A DNA stretch of 64,000 nt from Salinivirgaceae bacterium. Its GTDB lineage: Bacteria; Bacteroidota; Bacteroidia; Bacteroidales; SZUA-534. Under the pieces are notes generated by a model, which saw only the letters and a list, made by a program, of their open reading frames with translations, made no database searches and had not been told where the DNA came from. The position numbers and the translations under genes were made by a program. This document shows positions 54,330 through 64,000 of this stretch, piece by piece. The stretch lies in contig JAEEPS010000001.1 of assembly GCA_016284875.1 (NCBI GenBank), forward strand, positions 62,001 through 126,000, given 5' to 3'. Each line of letters begins with the position of its first letter. Within the stretch, counting starts at the first letter, position 1.

Positions 54330-54387
54330 CAAATTACGGCTCAATTAACTTTTTTTGAAACGTTGAATTTACGTGCCAAATTTTGTG

Positions 54388-54395
54388 CATATTTG
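54388..54395 (+). promoter_or_regulatory. Possible promoter box of the SpoIIE sensor
   Basis: CATATTTG is one base off TAnnTTTG and is followed by an A/T-rich leader to the ATG at 54416. A TTG at 54363-54365 may be the -33 element. Confidence 0.35.
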
Positions 54396-54415
54396 AAATA
54401 ATTAAATTTCAGAAA

Positions 54416-57400
54416 ATGAGAGCACTCAAAAAAATGCTTCTGGCAACGGCTGTTGCAATGGCATTCGGAGCATCGGCGCAAATTAAAAACTATTCGCCTG
54501 TAAATTACGGGCCAAAGCAATACGGAACGCTTTACGACCCTAATAACAACGCCATAGCGCAAGATTCACGCGGAATAATGTATTTTGGAACGACCAATGC
54601 CGTCTGGCAATTCGACGGCCATGATTGGAAGCGCATCGAAATAAAGGCAGGAATCAGCGTAAGTTCGATTTTGGTTTCAGAGTCGTGCGACACAATTTTC
54701 ATTGGAGCACAAAATGAGTTTGGTTTTCTTGTGTCGAACGGCACAAGTTACGATTATGTGTCTCTTTATGAGGCTGTTAAAGATGTTTTATTTCCGTTTT
54801 CTGATATTTGGAAAATATTCAGTATAAACGGCAAAATCTATTATCAGTGCTACGATTACATTTTCATGTACGATGGAGAGAATGTTCATATTTTCGAACC
54901 TGAAACTGTTTTTCATAATTCATTCTGCATTGATAATCAGTTGTATGTGCGTCAGCGCGAGATAGGTTTGTGCCGTCTGGACAGCACGAAATTTAAACTT
55001 GTGCCAGGGGGTGAGATATTCGCTAACATCGGTATTTTCGGTATAGAAAAAATCGGAGAAGACAAACTATTGATTATCAGTTATGAAGATGGTTCGTGGA
55101 TAATGGATGGAAATAGCATTACTCGCAACACATCAGACTTCGACAAAACACTGAAAAACATAGGTTTCAATGTTACAAGTTGCGTAATGCTGAGCGACAG
55201 CACGCTTGCATTGGGATCATACGACAATGGAATATTGGTGGTAACCACAGACGGCAAAGTTGTAACTCATAAAACAATTGAAAACGGATTAAATGAAAAT
55301 TTGATAAACAAAATATTCTGCGACCGTGAGCGAAATCTTTGGTTAACAACCAGTAAGGGAATAACATTGTTACCCAACAACGATTACATCTCACATTTTT
55401 CGGCCGAAAGCGGAATTGATGGCAGCGTGTTTGCCGTTCAGGAATTCAAGGGAAAACTTTATTTAGGTACTTCCAATGGTCTGCTTGTGCAGAATAAGAA
55501 TTTGAAAACATTCGATGAACCACTCTATTTGCCATTGACAAAAATGAACCGCAAGGTGTCGAGTTTGACTGTTTGTTTAGGAGAGTTGCTTGTAGGAACT
55601 GATGACGGAGTGTACCAGATGACCGATAAAAACACATTTGAAAAGATATTTCCCTTAAATTCAACACTTTGTGATGTATCATGCATGGCTTATGATGACT
55701 ATTCAAAAACTCTGCTAGTTGGATTCAACAACGGATTGGCTGTGTTGAAGAGAGAAGTGAGTGAGTGGAAGCATGTGGTTACAATGTGGAAACATATTGA
55801 AACCTGGGCAGAATATTTTGACATTAAAAAGATTGAAACTGAAATAAATAGCGATGGATTGTTGGTTGCGTGGTTGGGAACAACCAATCAGGGAGTTATA
55901 AGAATAACCTTTAACGGAGCCGATACCAAACCAGTGTTATTCTCTTCTGGCGAAAACAACGGACTTGAACGTGGTCTTGCTTTTCCGACTAAAATAGATG
56001 GAAAAATATGTTTGGTAAACCAAGGAGCATTGTTGAAATTCGTACGCGATACCGTTGAAAACCAAGAATTTGAAGGATTTCAGAATTACGAAGAAAATCC
56101 GTGGTGTTTTGATATTTACCAGATGTTTACACTCGACAGCGTGTCGTGGGTTTCGAACGGAACAAACATTGCCTACCATCTAAAAGGTGAAAAAGAAAGT
56201 CACAGCACGCAGTTCCGCGGACTTGACGCCGGACGTGTAAACACCATCTATACTACTGACAATAATATTGTTTGGTTGGGAACAACAGAAGGACTTGTAA
56301 TGTGCGTCAATGCGCCGTACAAACCGCAGGAATTTCCCGGACTCATTCGAGAATTGAAGTTGAAAACCAACAATCAAGTTGTAAATCTCGAAACAGAAAA
56401 CTTGAAAATACCTTATAAGGACAATTCGCTGACAATCAGTTTTTCGGCCTCGTGGTACAGCATTTCTGACAGCGTCAAGTTCAAGTATTATTTGAGCAGC
56501 GCATCGTATCGAGATTCTTCGGCTTGGACGCGGCAGACGTTTGTGGATTTCAACCATTTACATGAGGGTACTTATACCTTTACTATAAAGGCTCGCAACG
56601 CTTACGGCATTGAGAGCGAAGAGGCCAGTTGTACGTTCAAGATAGCACCGCCGTGGTATCGCACAGTTGTGGCGTATATTGTTTATGTTCTGCTACTTGT
56701 GGCTATAGTTTACGGAATCATCAAATATTACACTTACCAACTGAAAGAGCGCAACCGCTTGCTTGACCTTGAAGTTAAACGGCAGACTAAACAAATTGAA
56801 GAACAGTTGGTTAAGATTGAAGAACAGAACCATTCACTGACCGACAGTATTAACTATGCCGCGCGAATTCAGCGAATGTCGCTGCCAAATACAGATTTTG
56901 TAAATAAGTATGTGAGTGAGTCGTTCATTCTTTTCAAGCCGCGCGACATTGTGAGTGGCGACTTCTACTGGTGTGCCGAGGCCGATAACAAACTGGTAAT
57001 CACGGCTGCCGACTGCACAGGCCATGGTGTTCCTGGTGCCATGATGAGTATGTTGGGTATGAACTCACTTAACACAATTGTGAAAGTCCGTGGCACAATT
57101 AATCCAGGAGCCATACTGAACGATTTGCGTGCTAGCGTTGTGCGTTCGTTTGCCGACAAAGGACCGAATGCAGCAAAAGACGGCATGGACATTTGTTTGC
57201 TGACCGTTGACAAAGAAAACAATAAACTAATGTTTGCTGGTGCCTACAATTCTCTGATTCAAATCCGCAATGGTGAACTGACTGAATTCAAGGTAGATAG
57301 ATTTCCTTGTGCATTGTCGGATCAATATGAGAAAGGAATCATGTTCACGACTCAGACCATAGAAATGCAGAAGGGTGACTGCTACTATTTCTTATCAGAT

Positions 57401-57592
57401 GGCTACTGCGACCAGTTTGGTGGCGAAGATGGGCAGAAAAAATTTATGAAGGCTCGTTTCAAACGTCATTTGCTCGAAATATGGAACAAACCGATGGAAG
57501 AGCAAGGAGAGATACTTAACAAAATACATCTTGAATTTAAAGGAGCAGCAAGCCAGATTGACGACATTCTTGTAATAGGAATCAGAATTTAG
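54416..57592 (+). CDS. Propeller sensor fused to SpoIIE/PP2C phosphatase
   Basis: One-piece signalling protein. From the ATG at 54416 it has 1058 residues: signal peptide (to GASAQ), a large periplasmic part of two-component-regulator propeller repeats up to about 640 (GILVVTTDGKVV, NLWLTTSKGITLL, LVGTDDGVYQM), a Y_Y_Y domain about 650-755 (GTYTFTIKARNAYGIE), one TM about 760-782, a coiled coil (KRQTKQIEEQLVKIEEQNHSL), and a C-terminal SpoIIE/PP2C domain with FKPRDIVSGDFYW and TAADCTGHGVPGAMMSMLG. The usual partner of this sensor type is a histidine kinase; here a serine phosphatase takes its place, a combination known in Bacteroidota. Target unknown. Confidence 0.9.
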   Translation: MRALKKMLLATAVAMAFGASAQIKNYSPVNYGPKQYGTLYDPNNNAIAQDSRGIMYFGTTNAVWQFDGHDWKRIEIKAGISVSSILVSESCDTIFIGAQNEFGFLVSNGTSYDYVSLYEAVKDVLFPFSDIWKIFSINGKIYYQCYDYIFMYDGENVHIFEPETVFHNSFCIDNQLYVRQREIGLCRLDSTKFKLVPGGEIFANIGIFGIEKIGEDKLLIISYEDGSWIMDGNSITRNTSDFDKTLKNIGFNVTSCVMLSDSTLALGSYDNGILVVTTDGKVVTHKTIENGLNENLINKIFCDRERNLWLTTSKGITLLPNNDYISHFSAESGIDGSVFAVQEFKGKLYLGTSNGLLVQNKNLKTFDEPLYLPLTKMNRKVSSLTVCLGELLVGTDDGVYQMTDKNTFEKIFPLNSTLCDVSCMAYDDYSKTLLVGFNNGLAVLKREVSEWKHVVTMWKHIETWAEYFDIKKIETEINSDGLLVAWLGTTNQGVIRITFNGADTKPVLFSSGENNGLERGLAFPTKIDGKICLVNQGALLKFVRDTVENQEFEGFQNYEENPWCFDIYQMFTLDSVSWVSNGTNIAYHLKGEKESHSTQFRGLDAGRVNTIYTTDNNIVWLGTTEGLVMCVNAPYKPQEFPGLIRELKLKTNNQVVNLETENLKIPYKDNSLTISFSASWYSISDSVKFKYYLSSASYRDSSAWTRQTFVDFNHLHEGTYTFTIKARNAYGIESEEASCTFKIAPPWYRTVVAYIVYVLLLVAIVYGIIKYYTYQLKERNRLLDLEVKRQTKQIEEQLVKIEEQNHSLTDSINYAARIQRMSLPNTDFVNKYVSESFILFKPRDIVSGDFYWCAEADNKLVITAADCTGHGVPGAMMSMLGMNSLNTIVKVRGTINPGAILNDLRASVVRSFADKGPNAAKDGMDICLLTVDKENNKLMFAGAYNSLIQIRNGELTEFKVDRFPCALSDQYEKGIMFTTQTIEMQKGDCYYFLSDGYCDQFGGEDGQKKFMKARFKRHLLEIWNKPMEEQGEILNKIHLEFKGAASQIDDILVIGIRI

Positions 57593-57610: not shown

Positions 57611-57640
57611 AAAAAAGTCGGAAAAACATCCGACTTTTTT
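57611..57640. terminator. Bidirectional terminator between convergent genes
   Basis: AAAAAAGTCGG (57611-57621) and CCGACTTTTTT (57630-57640) form an 11-bp stem around an 8-base loop; T-runs lie on both strands. It serves both the SpoIIE gene and the minus-strand CHAT operon. Confidence 0.92.
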
Positions 57641-57664: not shown

Positions 57665-59863
57665 TTATTTCGATGGTTTGTCGATGCTGTTGTAAGTTTC
57701 CTTACCATCGAATGTAAACCTCATGTAGGAGGCTTTTATTTTGTTATCAGCCGTTGCTTTTTGAGGTTCGTTGTCGAGAGCCGACACAACTTCGAAAGTT
57801 GTGTTGTCGCATTTCGAAATCCACATAGGATAAATTGAGCGGTTGGGTTTGTAGTTTTCTCCGTCAATCCAGTTTCCTTCGGCATCAATTGAATAAATGA
57901 AAAGGCCCGAATCGCCGTTCAGGTTAACTTCATCATTATCAAGATCCAACATTTTGCTGAAAGAACCAATGATGTAATAGATGTTGTCGGTTTTCAGGAT
58001 GTTGCAGGTGTAGCCGTCGAATTTGAGTTGTTTGTTCCAAAGGGTTTTGAATTTGGAATCCAAACAGCAAATGTGCATGTCGCACGTTTCACTAATAAAC
58101 GGCTTAATGCTTGTGCCACAGAACAATACAACATATTTATTATCGATGTCATCAACTAAAAGTTTACGCGGCAGAGCCTTTATTTTAATTTCAGTAGTTT
58201 GCTTTTGGTTTCCTGCCTTATCGAGCAAAATCATGAAATTGCGAATTACACCAGTTTTTGTGGTTGAGGTTACAAGGGCTGCAATCTCATCGTTCAGCGA
58301 AGTCACAAATAGGCAAGAGCGGTTTCCTTCGCCAGGCTTGAAGGTTTTAAGCCATTTAACGTTGTGCAGTGTGTCGATGCTTGCAACAAAGGCAGAATGA
58401 TCACCACTTTTGCCAACAAACGTTCCTGCCAACAATATCTGATTTTTATCGGCATCTTGTTTAGAATGAACAAAATAACCTTTTTTAGACAATTTTTCAG
58501 CAGTAACTATTTGTGCAAAAATGGTGTCACCATTGTAGAGCAAGAAGTGTTTGTTTACGGGATTCAACTTGCTGCCCATTTTTAAAAGATGGTCGGCATA
58601 ATCGTCGATTGCACCATCAAAATACTTATTATCAAATGTTTGTTGGTTCAAAACGTACTCTTGCAATCCTTTTTCGCCTTTGTATTTTTTCTCAAAAATG
58701 TTGCTGTACTTCTTTATGCCCTCATCGCTGATGTTGCCATAAAGCAGAGTAAGCAGTGAGTCAGTCGCCTTGCGGTACTCAAGCGCTTTTGTAAAATGGT
58801 TGTTTGAAGGATAGTTGAAACCGAACGCAAAGAAGTTAGTATCAGTGCGATACGAAGACAATTGGTACATATAGTTAATCTGCGACTCCTGAAACAAAAG
58901 CAATGAATTTGCCAGCGACTCGTAGTCGTATTTGTAAATCTTATTAATAAGATAAGGCGGAACGCGGTAGTTTTCAGGAACACCATCAATATTTTTCTCA
59001 GTAAGAAGGCTCACATATTTTTTGTTCAGCGTTTCGGTCTCATCAATGTTTTTGTATAAGTAAGTTATATCGTTCTTATACACATCTTTAAATGTATTGA
59101 TCCAACTGTTGAAATCCCAGAGTTCGATGTTTTGCGCCAAAAAATTTGCAGGAGTGAGGCCATGCATTCGGTAAATCTGAATGGGATTCAACGTGTAGTT
59201 GAATGTATAGTTGAACATTGGGTGTTTTTTCAGAGAAATCTGAAGTTTTTCAAGATAATAGAGTGTTGAGTCGAAATTGATTTTTAACGCATCGAGTTGT
59301 GATGTTAAATTGTTGTCAACCAAAAAGTAAAGGTCTTTCAACTTGCTGTTTTTGCGATTTATTTCGTTGTAGATGCTGATACACTCGTTGTATTTTGTGG
59401 CAGCGTTGTAGAGGTTGGTTCGGTTTTCGGTAAACACCTCTTTGAAATTCTTGATTTTAACGATGTGATTGTTGATGGATTCCGTTATCTCTTCGAGTGT
59501 CGGGCCTTTTTTCGGATTGGCAGGAACTACATCGTCAAAATAACGACCGTCTTGTCGAGCCACCTTTTCGTCCAAATGCAGTTTGGCTAACGAAATATAA
59601 AGTTCAGCATTGTAAACATTCTGATTGATAGCCTTTTCCTGCAAAAACGGGTCGTAAGTGTCGAGACGTTTTTCAATGATCAGAGCCATTTTGTATAGAG
59701 AAGCCGAGTGAGCATTTTTCTTGCTTTGCGAGAACTCCTGAAGAGTTTGGTAGGCTTCATTATCCGACATTGTAGTTAAACTCTCGTACACATCCTTATA
59801 CTTCTGCGAAAAGGAAGTGTAACCGATTAACAAACTGACAATTAGTGTTATATAACGTTTCAT
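57665..59863 (-). CDS. Secreted protein of unknown function, CHAT operon
   Basis: Not recognised. From the ATG at 59863 it has 732 residues: signal peptide MKRYITLIVSLLIGYTSFSQ, a helical first half of TPR-like character (about 30-430), and a second half that reads like a beta-propeller of transport-type repeats (ILLAGTFVGKSGDHSAFVAS, NIYYIIGSFSKMLDLDND, GLFIYSIDAEGNW). Starts 20 bases after the stop of the PD40/OmpA gene; third gene of the operon, closed by the strong terminator. Confidence 0.7.
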   Translation of the reverse strand: MKRYITLIVSLLIGYTSFSQKYKDVYESLTTMSDNEAYQTLQEFSQSKKNAHSASLYKMALIIEKRLDTYDPFLQEKAINQNVYNAELYISLAKLHLDEKVARQDGRYFDDVVPANPKKGPTLEEITESINNHIVKIKNFKEVFTENRTNLYNAATKYNECISIYNEINRKNSKLKDLYFLVDNNLTSQLDALKINFDSTLYYLEKLQISLKKHPMFNYTFNYTLNPIQIYRMHGLTPANFLAQNIELWDFNSWINTFKDVYKNDITYLYKNIDETETLNKKYVSLLTEKNIDGVPENYRVPPYLINKIYKYDYESLANSLLLFQESQINYMYQLSSYRTDTNFFAFGFNYPSNNHFTKALEYRKATDSLLTLLYGNISDEGIKKYSNIFEKKYKGEKGLQEYVLNQQTFDNKYFDGAIDDYADHLLKMGSKLNPVNKHFLLYNGDTIFAQIVTAEKLSKKGYFVHSKQDADKNQILLAGTFVGKSGDHSAFVASIDTLHNVKWLKTFKPGEGNRSCLFVTSLNDEIAALVTSTTKTGVIRNFMILLDKAGNQKQTTEIKIKALPRKLLVDDIDNKYVVLFCGTSIKPFISETCDMHICCLDSKFKTLWNKQLKFDGYTCNILKTDNIYYIIGSFSKMLDLDNDEVNLNGDSGLFIYSIDAEGNWIDGENYKPNRSIYPMWISKCDNTTFEVVSALDNEPQKATADNKIKASYMRFTFDGKETYNSIDKPSK

Positions 59864-59883
59864 CGTATTCAAAGGTTTAAGTG

Positions 59884-61905
59884 TTATTCAATAATTTTAA
59901 TTTCCACTCGTCGGTTCTGCGCCCGATTTTCGTCAGATGTATTAGGCAGAATCGGCTTGGTTTCGCCATAACCTTTAGCCAAAATCATACTTTCTTTTAT
60001 TCCATTATCCGTCAGATATTTGGTTGCCATCTGTGCCCGTTTTTCCGAAAGGCGCATGTTGTACCAGTCGGAGCCTAAATCGTCGGTATGGGCCGAAAGT
60101 TCTATTTTAACGTTATCGTTCAACTTGAGGAAATCAATAATTCGGTTCAGTTCGGCAAACGAAGCGGTATTCAGTTCGGCCGAGTTGACCTCAAATGTTA
60201 TATTGTTGAAAGTCATCTTGGTATCCTTTGTCAGCAGATCAAGTTTGATGTTGAGTTTTTGTGTTTTCTTCGATTTCGACATATCAACTTTGGTGCTGCT
60301 GTAGGTGTAGCCTTTTTTGGCCACATCAATCTCATAACTGTCGCCCTCACGAAGTTCTACAATCAGGTTTCCATCCTTGTCGCGTTTGGCAACCACCGAT
60401 TGAGTCTCGTTTCGGCTCAAGTTTTTAACATTAACAATTACCGAATCGCCACCTTCGCCAGCGTTAATATCAAGAATCATGGCGGTTTTCGATGGGCTCA
60501 ACTCCACATCTTCCTCAAACTCATTGTAGAAAATGTCGGCAATGGTGTTCAAGTAGATGTCGTGAGGCTTGTAGTATTTGCAGTTGATATGGACTTTATA
60601 GGTTTTGCCGATATTAAGTTTGCTTTTGAACTTGCCTTTTTCAATCGGAATCAGGCTGTCGACAAGCAGTTCGCTCGTTGCCGAGTCGTAAACAGATACT
60701 TTTGGTGACAGAGGATAATACATCTCCTCATCGAAAACGTTGAGGTCGAATTCAACAGTCGAAAACAGCGTTGTATCAAATTGTTTTTTAATGTTTTGAG
60801 TGAAATAGTTGAGTTTTTCGTAATGGTAAGAGTGTGAGTAGCCGTCTTTGAAAAAATCAATTTTGTAATTGTTGTTTTCGTTCAGATAAATTGAGTATTG
60901 GCCCTTATCGTTGGTTGAATATTCACCCAAAACAGCCGATGTAATTAGGTCGGAAACAACAACTTGTGCCAAAAGAGGCTCGTTAGTGTTCTTGTCTTTG
61001 ATGGTTCCAACGAGTCGCATTGTCGGATAGGGTTTATATTCACTGCCGACAGCATATTGATAAGTTTTGTTGGGGTGTTTTTTCGACGGTTTTTTGGGAT
61101 TGGTGTTTTTGATGAATGTAGAGCCGTCGGTTGTCATCTGCGGTGAAAGGTCATCAAATTCGGTGCTCACATCAACCATGCATTTGGGCAGAGTCCAGCC
61201 GTTTTCGAAAATCACCTCCGATTTCAACTGTGTGTGGTAGATGTTGTAAACATCATCGGGCAGTTTTTTGCCTTGCGGTGTAGTGTCGGGTCTCATTGAT
61301 GAGAAGAAAAGAGTACGGCCGTCAGCGCACAGAAAAGGAGTTTCTTGGCAACCTGTATTGAAGACTTTCGGCAGTTCGCGAGGTCCAATCCATCGTCCGT
61401 CATTCTCGCGGCTATACATTACAAGTTGCTTGCATGAAGCATCGCTTTTCGGGCGCAGGAAAAAAATAAAATTATTATCAGCCGAAATGGTTGGCGAAAA
61501 CTCATCAGCCGTTGTGTTTATCGGTTCGTCGAATTTTGTAACGTTCTGCCAATCACCATTTTCACAAGTAACATACATTATGTCGAACGAAGATTCGGTT
61601 TTAGCGTGGAAAAGGAGTTTTGTTCCATCGTGGTTAAACGAAAAACCGCCAATTTGATTGCTGAGCATTTTTGTCAGAACAGGAATGGGTTTTGGTTCAC
61701 TCCACGAATCGCCGTTTTTTTCGGATTCACAAACAACTTTACCCTCGTTTTTTTCCATAATAAAAACGATTTTATCGCCTGTGTGGGAGAGGGCAGCATT
61801 GCTCACCATACCATCAAATGAAGGGAAGAGGTCGGTTTGTGCATGTCCGGTAAACGCACCAACAATAGCAGCAAATGTGAACAACAAGTGACTTTTTCGT
61901 ATCAT
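59884..61905 (-). CDS. PD40 / carboxypeptidase-regulatory / OmpA-domain protein
   Basis: Outer-membrane associated protein that probably binds peptidoglycan. Seen in 673 residues: signal peptide (to GHAQ), a PD40/WD40-like propeller about 25-270 (FSPTISADNNFIFFLRP, ETPFLCADGRTLFFSSM, LSPQMTTDGS), a CarboxypepD_reg type domain from about 295 (LVGTIKDKNTNEPLLAQVVV), further beta domains, and a C-terminal OmpA domain about 565-673 (IELSAHTDDLGS, RLSEKRAQMATKYL, RAQNRRVEIKI). The same domain set occurs in PorE, a type IX secretion component, but paralogues are many. It starts 12 bases after the CHAT gene. Confidence 0.88.
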   Translation of the reverse strand: MIRKSHLLFTFAAIVGAFTGHAQTDLFPSFDGMVSNAALSHTGDKIVFIMEKNEGKVVCESEKNGDSWSEPKPIPVLTKMLSNQIGGFSFNHDGTKLLFHAKTESSFDIMYVTCENGDWQNVTKFDEPINTTADEFSPTISADNNFIFFLRPKSDASCKQLVMYSRENDGRWIGPRELPKVFNTGCQETPFLCADGRTLFFSSMRPDTTPQGKKLPDDVYNIYHTQLKSEVIFENGWTLPKCMVDVSTEFDDLSPQMTTDGSTFIKNTNPKKPSKKHPNKTYQYAVGSEYKPYPTMRLVGTIKDKNTNEPLLAQVVVSDLITSAVLGEYSTNDKGQYSIYLNENNNYKIDFFKDGYSHSYHYEKLNYFTQNIKKQFDTTLFSTVEFDLNVFDEEMYYPLSPKVSVYDSATSELLVDSLIPIEKGKFKSKLNIGKTYKVHINCKYYKPHDIYLNTIADIFYNEFEEDVELSPSKTAMILDINAGEGGDSVIVNVKNLSRNETQSVVAKRDKDGNLIVELREGDSYEIDVAKKGYTYSSTKVDMSKSKKTQKLNIKLDLLTKDTKMTFNNITFEVNSAELNTASFAELNRIIDFLKLNDNVKIELSAHTDDLGSDWYNMRLSEKRAQMATKYLTDNGIKESMILAKGYGETKPILPNTSDENRAQNRRVEIKIIE

Positions 61906-61917
61906 TTTTATATTGTT

Positions 61918-63999
61918 TTAATCACCAATCAGAATAAACGGCGCCCAATAATATGGACGTGAGTAATTTTTGTCCAATATTAATATCTGTTTTGCTTTTT
62001 GCAAAAGTGCGGCATAATTTAGTTCGCTGTTTTCTTTCAATAGCATCTGACGGTAGAATTCAACCATCATTTGCGAGGTTGAGTTGTCAGATACTTTCCA
62101 GAGTGAAACTAACAAGTTTGCAGCGCCCGAATAAAGGAAAGCACGCGTCAGGCCGACAATGCCTTCACCTTTCATAATCTTTCCCAAACCCGTCTCGCAG
62201 GCCGACAAGGCAAGCAAATCGCATTTCAGACTAAGGTTGTAAACATCGCCAGAATACATCACGCCATCATTTGTTGAGGAAACGCTGAACTGAATGCCCG
62301 ACAACTCCGGTTTTTCTGAATTAACGAAACCGTGGGTGGCCAAATGGATGTATTTATAACCGGAGATGGAGTCGCTTGCAAAATTATTGCGATTGGCGCA
62401 ACCCCACATGAGCGCCCGCGACGGTTGTCCCGCTTTGGCAAACATTGAGTATATGTTGCGCAATTCTTGCTCCGACGACGCCAGCGGTTCTATCTTGTTG
62501 TTAATCACATAGTCAAGATTTTGGAATGTTTTTTCTTTCTTTTGGCTGCTGTTGAGTTCAACACCGGTGAACTTTCCTTTAGTGAAGATTGGAGCCATAC
62601 CAAACCAGCCACTTGTTCCGTTGTTGCGGTTGCGAGTGATATCACGGAAATAGAGGGTTGCTGAATAGGCATAACTGATGGAATAATATTTAATCATATA
62701 GTCGTAGTTTGAATAATCAAACACAGAACCCTCTTTCTTATTGGTTATCAGCGTTTCGTATGGAATCTGGTTCAAAGCGCCATCCGGCACAATCACAAGA
62801 TTGGTAATACCATCTGGCAGAGTGTCGGGGAATAGTTTGTGATAAAGTTGACTCGACAAATTGTTGAAATCGACTGCAGAATTTTGCGATGATTGAATCA
62901 TTGAGTTCCGGTACATTTTTGCAGTATCGGCAATATTTCCGGTCATTTTGCTTGTTGCAATTTTGAAGGCATCAGCAGTGATGCAGACCACATAAATCAT
63001 CTCACCGTTAAGCATATACATCCGCAATTGGGTGTTTTTGCTGATTTTTTTCTGAATCTCGCGCAGACTGACAATGTTGTCGGCATATTTAAGTTGGTGG
63101 TATTCAGGATATTTCTTCTCGAGTTTTTTAACAAACGAATCGTGACGCTTGTTGGCATTGAAAAGGCTATCGCGCATTTGCGAAGCGTTTTTAGGTTTTT
63201 CAGCTAACTTTTGCTCAAAATAAAGAACATCAGCAGCCAAGCGGTTTTCCTCCTGCTGGAGGTCATCGGGTATTTGGGCCAGTTTCATGGCATCCTGGCT
63301 GGCCATTGATTCAAGAAGATTGTTTGATTTGCCTTTTTCAATGTAAGAAAAGGCCACCTCCTCGTATTTTTTACGTTCACCAGTGTTCAAATTGCCGATA
63401 AGCAGTTCCGCACAAACCTCAAGGGCGCCTTCGTAACATTTGATGGCCAGTGCACCCAACTCCAATTTGTCGGTTTTTGTGAATGCCGCCCGGCGCATAG
63501 AGGTTATCAATTTGTCAGACAGACTGAAATGGTCCAGAGCAAATTCCAAATCCTTACGGTCTTTTGTGGTTAAATATCTTTGTGTCAGAACATTGGCACG
63601 CGAAATGATGGAATTCACAAATACATTCTGGTCGAAAAAACCGGTCTCTGCAGGCAAACGATCTTTTTGACGATTGTAGATTTCGTGGTTAGATTCAAGT
63701 GCCTTACCATAATTGTCAATAGCATCGTCGTATTTGCCTTGTTTCACATTGATATCGCCCATACTATTGTAAACCAATGCAATGTAAGGGTGTTTGTTTC
63801 CAAACGCGTTTGTGTAGATTTTAACTGCGGAAGAATAGAAAACCTGTGCCGAGTCAAGTTTTCCGGCACGCAGATAGGCCGTGGCAATGTTGTTGTCGGT
63901 ATTGGCAATCAGAGTGGGATTGACTGATGGAATGCCGTCATAAATTTTATGTGCTGTTTTGTAGTTAGATACAGCCTCGCTGTTGTTACCATTCTTCAA
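61918..63999 (-). CDS. TPR-CHAT caspase-like peptidase, N terminus beyond the window
   Basis: Member of clan CD peptidases (caspase-like). The 693 residues seen are cut at the window edge, in the middle of TPR repeats (NTDNNIATAYLRAGKLDSAQVFYSSAVKIY-type units); a signal peptide and earlier repeats are probably missing. The CHAT domain holds the catalytic pair: His in LATHGFVN (codon 62332-62334) and Cys in LSACETGLG (codon 62197-62199), 45 codons apart. Both are intact, so it should be active. Its gene is first in sight of a three-gene operon with the PD40/OmpA protein and a 732-residue secreted protein. Substrate unknown; no gasdermin-like gene is near. Confidence 0.9.
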   Translation of the reverse strand: MKNGNNSEAVSNYKTAHKIYDGIPSVNPTLIANTDNNIATAYLRAGKLDSAQVFYSSAVKIYTNAFGNKHPYIALVYNSMGDINVKQGKYDDAIDNYGKALESNHEIYNRQKDRLPAETGFFDQNVFVNSIISRANVLTQRYLTTKDRKDLEFALDHFSLSDKLITSMRRAAFTKTDKLELGALAIKCYEGALEVCAELLIGNLNTGERKKYEEVAFSYIEKGKSNNLLESMASQDAMKLAQIPDDLQQEENRLAADVLYFEQKLAEKPKNASQMRDSLFNANKRHDSFVKKLEKKYPEYHQLKYADNIVSLREIQKKISKNTQLRMYMLNGEMIYVVCITADAFKIATSKMTGNIADTAKMYRNSMIQSSQNSAVDFNNLSSQLYHKLFPDTLPDGITNLVIVPDGALNQIPYETLITNKKEGSVFDYSNYDYMIKYYSISYAYSATLYFRDITRNRNNGTSGWFGMAPIFTKGKFTGVELNSSQKKEKTFQNLDYVINNKIEPLASSEQELRNIYSMFAKAGQPSRALMWGCANRNNFASDSISGYKYIHLATHGFVNSEKPELSGIQFSVSSTNDGVMYSGDVYNLSLKCDLLALSACETGLGKIMKGEGIVGLTRAFLYSGAANLLVSLWKVSDNSTSQMMVEFYRQMLLKENSELNYAALLQKAKQILILDKNYSRPYYWAPFILIGD

Positions 64000-64000
64000 C

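Follow-up and report, generated by a model that had tools for sequence, protein, structure and literature searches.

A predicted exported TPR-CHAT peptidase encoded beside a conserved PD40-OmpA and helical-propeller protein pair in Bacteroidales

Bacterial CHAT and caspase proteases are mostly discussed as cytoplasmic enzymes of defence or cell death, and we know of no extracytoplasmic caspase-type signalling system. The TPR-CHAT protease of Craspase (Csx29, type III-E) consists of a TPR array and a CHAT domain with a His-Cys dyad and is gated by a partner complex; the Craspase system is RNA-guided and works in the cytoplasm. HetF, a CHAT protein of filamentous cyanobacteria, is tied to envelope or cell-division biology (PMC8406250). 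OmpA domains were found in 14 predicted metacaspase operons in a 2012 survey (PMC3501461). Two further groups bear on the locus described here, namely the envelope proteins of the CHU_0125 family and PorE, which combine PD40 with a C-terminal OmpA domain, and SiaA-type receptors, which connect an outside sensor through a membrane helix to a cytoplasmic SpoIIE phosphatase.

The locus lies in a stretch of 64,000 nt (the window; positions 62001–126000 of a contig in a 3.57 Mb assembly, the contig running on to 136193) whose nearest named relatives are Salinivirgaceae MAGs, largely ruminant. Three minus-strand genes with gaps of 12 and 20 bases were located where the original prediction had placed them and were designated C (TPR-CHAT), D (PD40-CarboxypepD_reg-OmpA) and E (the third protein). 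The 3′ part of C occupies 61918–64000, and the whole gene of 1419 codons is at L006:1918-6177, corresponding to 61918–66177 if the window is extended. D (59884–61905) and E (57665–59863) encode proteins of 673 and 732 aa; a TTG at 59872 had been taken as the start of E, which is instead an ATG at 59863. As predicted, the unit closes with one terminator at 57611–57640, which has a 12-pair stem and a T-run on each strand (−16.9 kcal/mol, z −4.8) and is common to the C-D-E unit and a convergent SpoIIE gene. The cluster as first described was incomplete, since two paralogous genes upstream of C on the same strand, B2 (258 codons) and B1 (253 codons), also belong to it; both encode members of a small exported family (B) and have signal peptides. 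C, D and E each carry a signal peptide, as judged by eye from sequence and hydropathy rather than with a dedicated predictor, and export of the module proteins is a well-supported prediction. Upstream of B1, L006:7992-9155 was read by eye as a cytidylyltransferase-like and GHMP-kinase-like fusion.

The 5′ end of C was obtained from the contig beyond the window, and the protein accordingly has 1419 aa instead of the 693 aa given originally. It begins MKKAVTFFLLVSVFGMAAAQ at the likely ATG and comprises nine TPR_12 stretches, forming a long TPR array, followed by a C-terminal CHAT domain (8e-54, about 183 bits against PF12770, cut-off 24). The His and Cys that had been noted in the window sequence are kept as HLATHGF and LSACETG in all genus members read, with codons near 62332–62334 and 62197–62199, and this gives good support to the prediction that C is catalytically competent. 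With a signal peptide like the others, C does not look cytoplasmic beside its exported partners. C shares the TPR array, the CHAT domain and the His-Cys dyad with Csx29, and the proposed module would resemble Craspase in being gated by a partner complex; however, C carries a signal peptide, its TPR array is longer than that of Csx29, no CRISPR genes adjoin it, and it scored 17.9 bits against the Csx29 model (NF041237), far from the cut-off of 300. Both C and the envelope- or cell-division-linked HetF are CHAT proteins, but they differ in phylum and partners. To our knowledge no homologue of B, D or E is known for HetF.

D was found to contain an OmpA domain (7e-21), PD40 (2e-7) and a CarboxypepD_reg-like beta-sandwich (3e-7, slightly below the cut-off). 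The OmpA domain scored 74.9 bits against PF00691 (cut-off 27.2), includes the Asp...Arg motif HTDDLGSDWYNMRLSEKRA and has the HTD...KRA motif that is peptidoglycan-binding in characterised OmpA domains. The suggestion that the middle protein can bind peptidoglycan is thus upheld as a prediction with good support. E was assigned to no Pfam family at the cut-off. AlphaFold applied to 16 E sequences (mean pLDDT 86.4, pTM 0.72) confirmed the helical half and propeller half read earlier from the sequence, the well-supported predicted fold having helices to residue 431, two short strands at 222–249 and a propeller at about 440–725. Structure searches with the whole E model returned solved structures that match the propeller only generically (Foldseek, VIA-align), the best being CylK (VIA Z 19.4, rmsd 3.9 over 278 residues; Foldseek TMq 0.28), while a PDB sequence search with the E profile gave weak helical matches only. 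The original description of two envelope-anchored propeller proteins holds for D, through its OmpA domain, but not for E, which has a signal peptide but in which no lipobox or anchor domain was found. A type IX sorting signal on E was also considered, and none was seen in the domain search. Two proteins from another family of the class (L068:8875-10812 and L069:9189-10973) match the helical half of E only and have a different C-terminal part.

The genes of the module are inherited together. The order B-C-D-E was kept in 7 of 7 named MAG loci, which lie in about four different surroundings. B, CHAT and E were jointly present or absent in all 11 genus genomes, a count made with no correction for phylogeny: in nine, E is accompanied by the genome's only CHAT gene, which lies next to it, and by one or two B genes, while G004 and G008 (92 % and 98 % complete) lack all three. 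Among 20 family genomes, likewise with no correction for phylogeny, E and B always agreed (14 both, 6 neither). In 30 of 31 Bacteroidales loci the gene immediately upstream of E, on the same strand, is D, the exception being L052; 29 of these came from the neighbourhood count and one, L042, from tblastn, which placed D in another frame of a long open frame, and in L044 the D-like gene is split. This indicates that the D-E pairing is old. Of the 31 loci, 9 have a gene for CHAT or caspase no more than 9 kb from E, whereas the gene densities of these genomes predict 0.8. At the other 22 there is no peptidase within that distance, and there D-E works without one. The core is therefore D-E rather than the protease, as the pair occurs widely with no peptidase nearby. 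The earlier proposal that the three genes form a system is supported by the all-or-none presence within the genus, the conserved order and the replacement of CHAT by a caspase in the same cluster, and the genes adjoin in relatives.

The convergent gene (54383–57592, plus strand, probable start at the ATG at 54416) encodes a receptor that has a signal peptide, with its Reg_prop propeller and Y_Y_Y on the outer side, a single membrane helix (about residues 757–785) and a cytoplasmic SpoIIE domain; PF07228 scored 50.7 bits (cut-off 25) and PF07494 31.1 bits (cut-off 20.4), with the helix between them. The SiaA model matches its phosphatase end with 190 bits, far below the cut-off of 700, and the Reg_prop sensor is unlike that of SiaA-type receptors. 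Of the 31 E loci, 19 have a SpoIIE gene no more than 9 kb away, in most cases right next to E, against 4.0 expected, a figure that allows for the SpoIIE expansions in Bacteroidales (21 in this genome, up to 65 in one relative). Most of these E-adjacent receptors begin with a signal-peptide-like stretch and place about 740 aa outside, ahead of a single membrane helix and an inner SpoIIE domain. Twelve of them formed one clade in a maximum-likelihood tree (100/98); outside it were the window receptor with two close relatives, the L036 and L039 receptors and the L052 receptor. Four label changes were needed on the tree, compared with a mean of 15 for shuffled labels. The E-adjacent receptors thus appear to have been recruited from several lineages, and that this happened repeatedly at one site speaks for a functional link with E.

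The reading that we tentatively prefer, in line with the original suggestion of proteolytic envelope sensing, is that the locus encodes an exported proteolytic envelope-sensing module, anchored to peptidoglycan in the periplasm and relaying to the transmembrane phosphatase. D would be held on peptidoglycan by its OmpA domain with E as its partner, and the propellers of both, together with the helical half of E, would form a scaffold or sensor. The clan CD cysteine peptidase with its TPR array (a CHAT type in this genus, a caspase in relatives) would be held or gated by this scaffold together with B, with B and the TPR array as the gate. Upon an envelope change, the peptidase might make a limited cut in a periplasmic partner, candidate substrates being B and the outside region of the propeller-SpoIIE receptor, whose cytoplasmic phosphatase would relay the signal inward. 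Complex formation, gating or activation, the substrate and the signal are all conjectural steps here. A bolder form, which we consider doubtful, would be a periplasmic caspase-like cascade in which the D-E scaffold activates an interchangeable CHAT or caspase, restrained by excess B, and relays envelope state to the transmembrane phosphatase. No description of the B-C-D-E module was found in open-licence papers. Part of the association had been glimpsed in the OmpA domains of metacaspase operons by the 2012 survey, which does not describe E, B, SpoIIE, the exchange with CHAT or the module (PMC3501461). If CHAT and caspase do serve one exported role in the cassette, beside a peptidoglycan binder and two unassigned protein families, B and E, the function of exported bacterial caspase homologues would become testable, and these enzymes would be tied to envelope signalling in a lineage abundant in gut and rumen.

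PorE is a docking part of the type IX secretion system surface machinery, and PorU, also of clan CD, is a processing enzyme. The main rival to envelope sensing is a role in envelope assembly or maturation, in which D-E would be a peptidoglycan-outer membrane tether or docking part and the peptidase would process or quality-control exported proteins with no signalling. It ranks as the main rival because, among curated families, D comes closest to the CHU_0125 outer-membrane-integrity family (NF053607, 141 bits, cut-off 620) and PorE (NF052230, 121 bits, cut-off 600), though with scores far below the cut-off of either, and because the genome has a type IX system, as judged from 31 C-terminal sorting domains; deletion of chu_0125 harms outer membrane integrity (PMC5891637). 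However, CHU_0125 carries TPR where D has CarboxypepD_reg, and D differs from both CHU_0125 and PorE in being without a lipobox. With the E profile, 28 of 294 Bacteroidales genomes yielded 29 long matches and 392 genomes drawn across the phylum nearly none, matches outside Bacteroidales being mostly weak propeller matches. E is therefore absent from nearly all sampled genomes outside the order, where type IX systems are widespread. The loss of the whole module in 2 of 11 genus genomes and the usual neighbour, a signalling receptor and not a translocon gene, also argue against an assembly role, which we regard as rather unlikely.

Envelope sensing by the whole cluster also has to be weighed against an improbable reading in which the system consists of D-E together with SpoIIE, and the peptidase-B pair lies next to it by chance as a system of its own. 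In other families B and the peptidases do occur without E: among 31 fetched B loci, mostly without E, a SpoIIE gene adjoins B in 14 and a CHAT or caspase gene lies within about three genes of B in about eight. B proteins are predicted to be exported, are about 250 aa long and are encoded by one or two genes upstream of CHAT. In the B model (pLDDT 84.5), beta structure dominates the N-terminal part, the middle shows a weak alignment with Ig-like domains and the tail is helical; the fold search gave no convincing match (best VIA Z 5.7, the MtxA C-terminal domain), and none of 36 members received a credible Pfam assignment. An idea from sequence reading that B is FecR-like was dropped, as 0 of 36 members match Pfam FecR at E up to 1.

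Separation of B from the peptidase is also indicated by a hairpin, terminator-like and with a conserved loop, that lies between the B and CHAT genes (L006:6218-6247, or 66218–66247 if the window is extended; −17.8 kcal/mol, z −3.8). Its stem, AATGCCCG...CGGGCATTTTT, was present in 9 of 9 aligned sequences from the genus and one sister genus, at the same site in L028-L034 and L047, close before the start of C and often too close for a separate promoter. The stem is kept in L032 despite changes on both sides (CCCG/CGGG to CCTA/TTGG, one G-U pair included). The hairpin is possibly an attenuator, and transcription of B may be partly separate from that of C-D-E. Read-through past the hairpin probably yields C, D and E, so that B would exceed the protease.

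Chance adjacency fits poorly with the exchange of peptidases at the locus, which has TPR-CHAT in this genus, TPR-caspase (C14) in sister genera and, once, a caspase fused to the N-terminal part of D. The TPR-caspase adjoins a B homologue in the cluster with D and E in the sister genera (L036, L039, L040 and L041; Peptidase_C14 3e-19 to 1e-22 in the three scanned). L040 and L041 have caspase, B, D and E in that order on a single strand, whereas in L036 and L039 TPR-SpoIIE, TPR-caspase and B face D-E from the opposite strand, an arrangement more in keeping with separate systems. Another family (L050 and L103) has two TPR-CHAT genes and then B, divergent from D. The fusion, known from one genome, is a 796-aa frame (L044:12034-14424) that matches the D profile at residues 11–511 (2e-134), with the PD40/CarboxypepD part of a D-like protein, and caspase at residues 548–782 (5.5e-16); it is followed by a WD40-OmpA protein, so that the OmpA domain is on a separate protein, and then by E. 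Two peptidase types at one locus within one family, this fusion, the divergent CHAT genes beside D and the joint loss of B, CHAT and E within the genus all argue for a connection between the peptidase and D-E. All 20 peptidases inspected, CHAT or caspase, keep His and Cys and start with a signal-peptide-like stretch; the one from L067 has DACFSE instead of DACFSG.

Defence, also raised originally and taken here as an anti-phage or cell-suicide system with a caspase-like executioner, is very improbable, for although CHAT and caspase proteases act in bacterial defence, as in Craspase, all parts look exported, the loci read have no consistent defence context, and PADLOC gave generic matches (TPR, MotB/OmpA, caspase) and no system-specific anti-phage component. 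A PHROGs search found nothing. One Bacteroidales genome (G035) has 23 caspase (C14) and 12 CHAT matches. Genes upstream of D code for a SPOR-domain protein in some families and for a DUF6702 protein in others (Pfam on one each; L051:13486-14520, L057:13109-13603 and similar), which are possible alternative partners of D-E.
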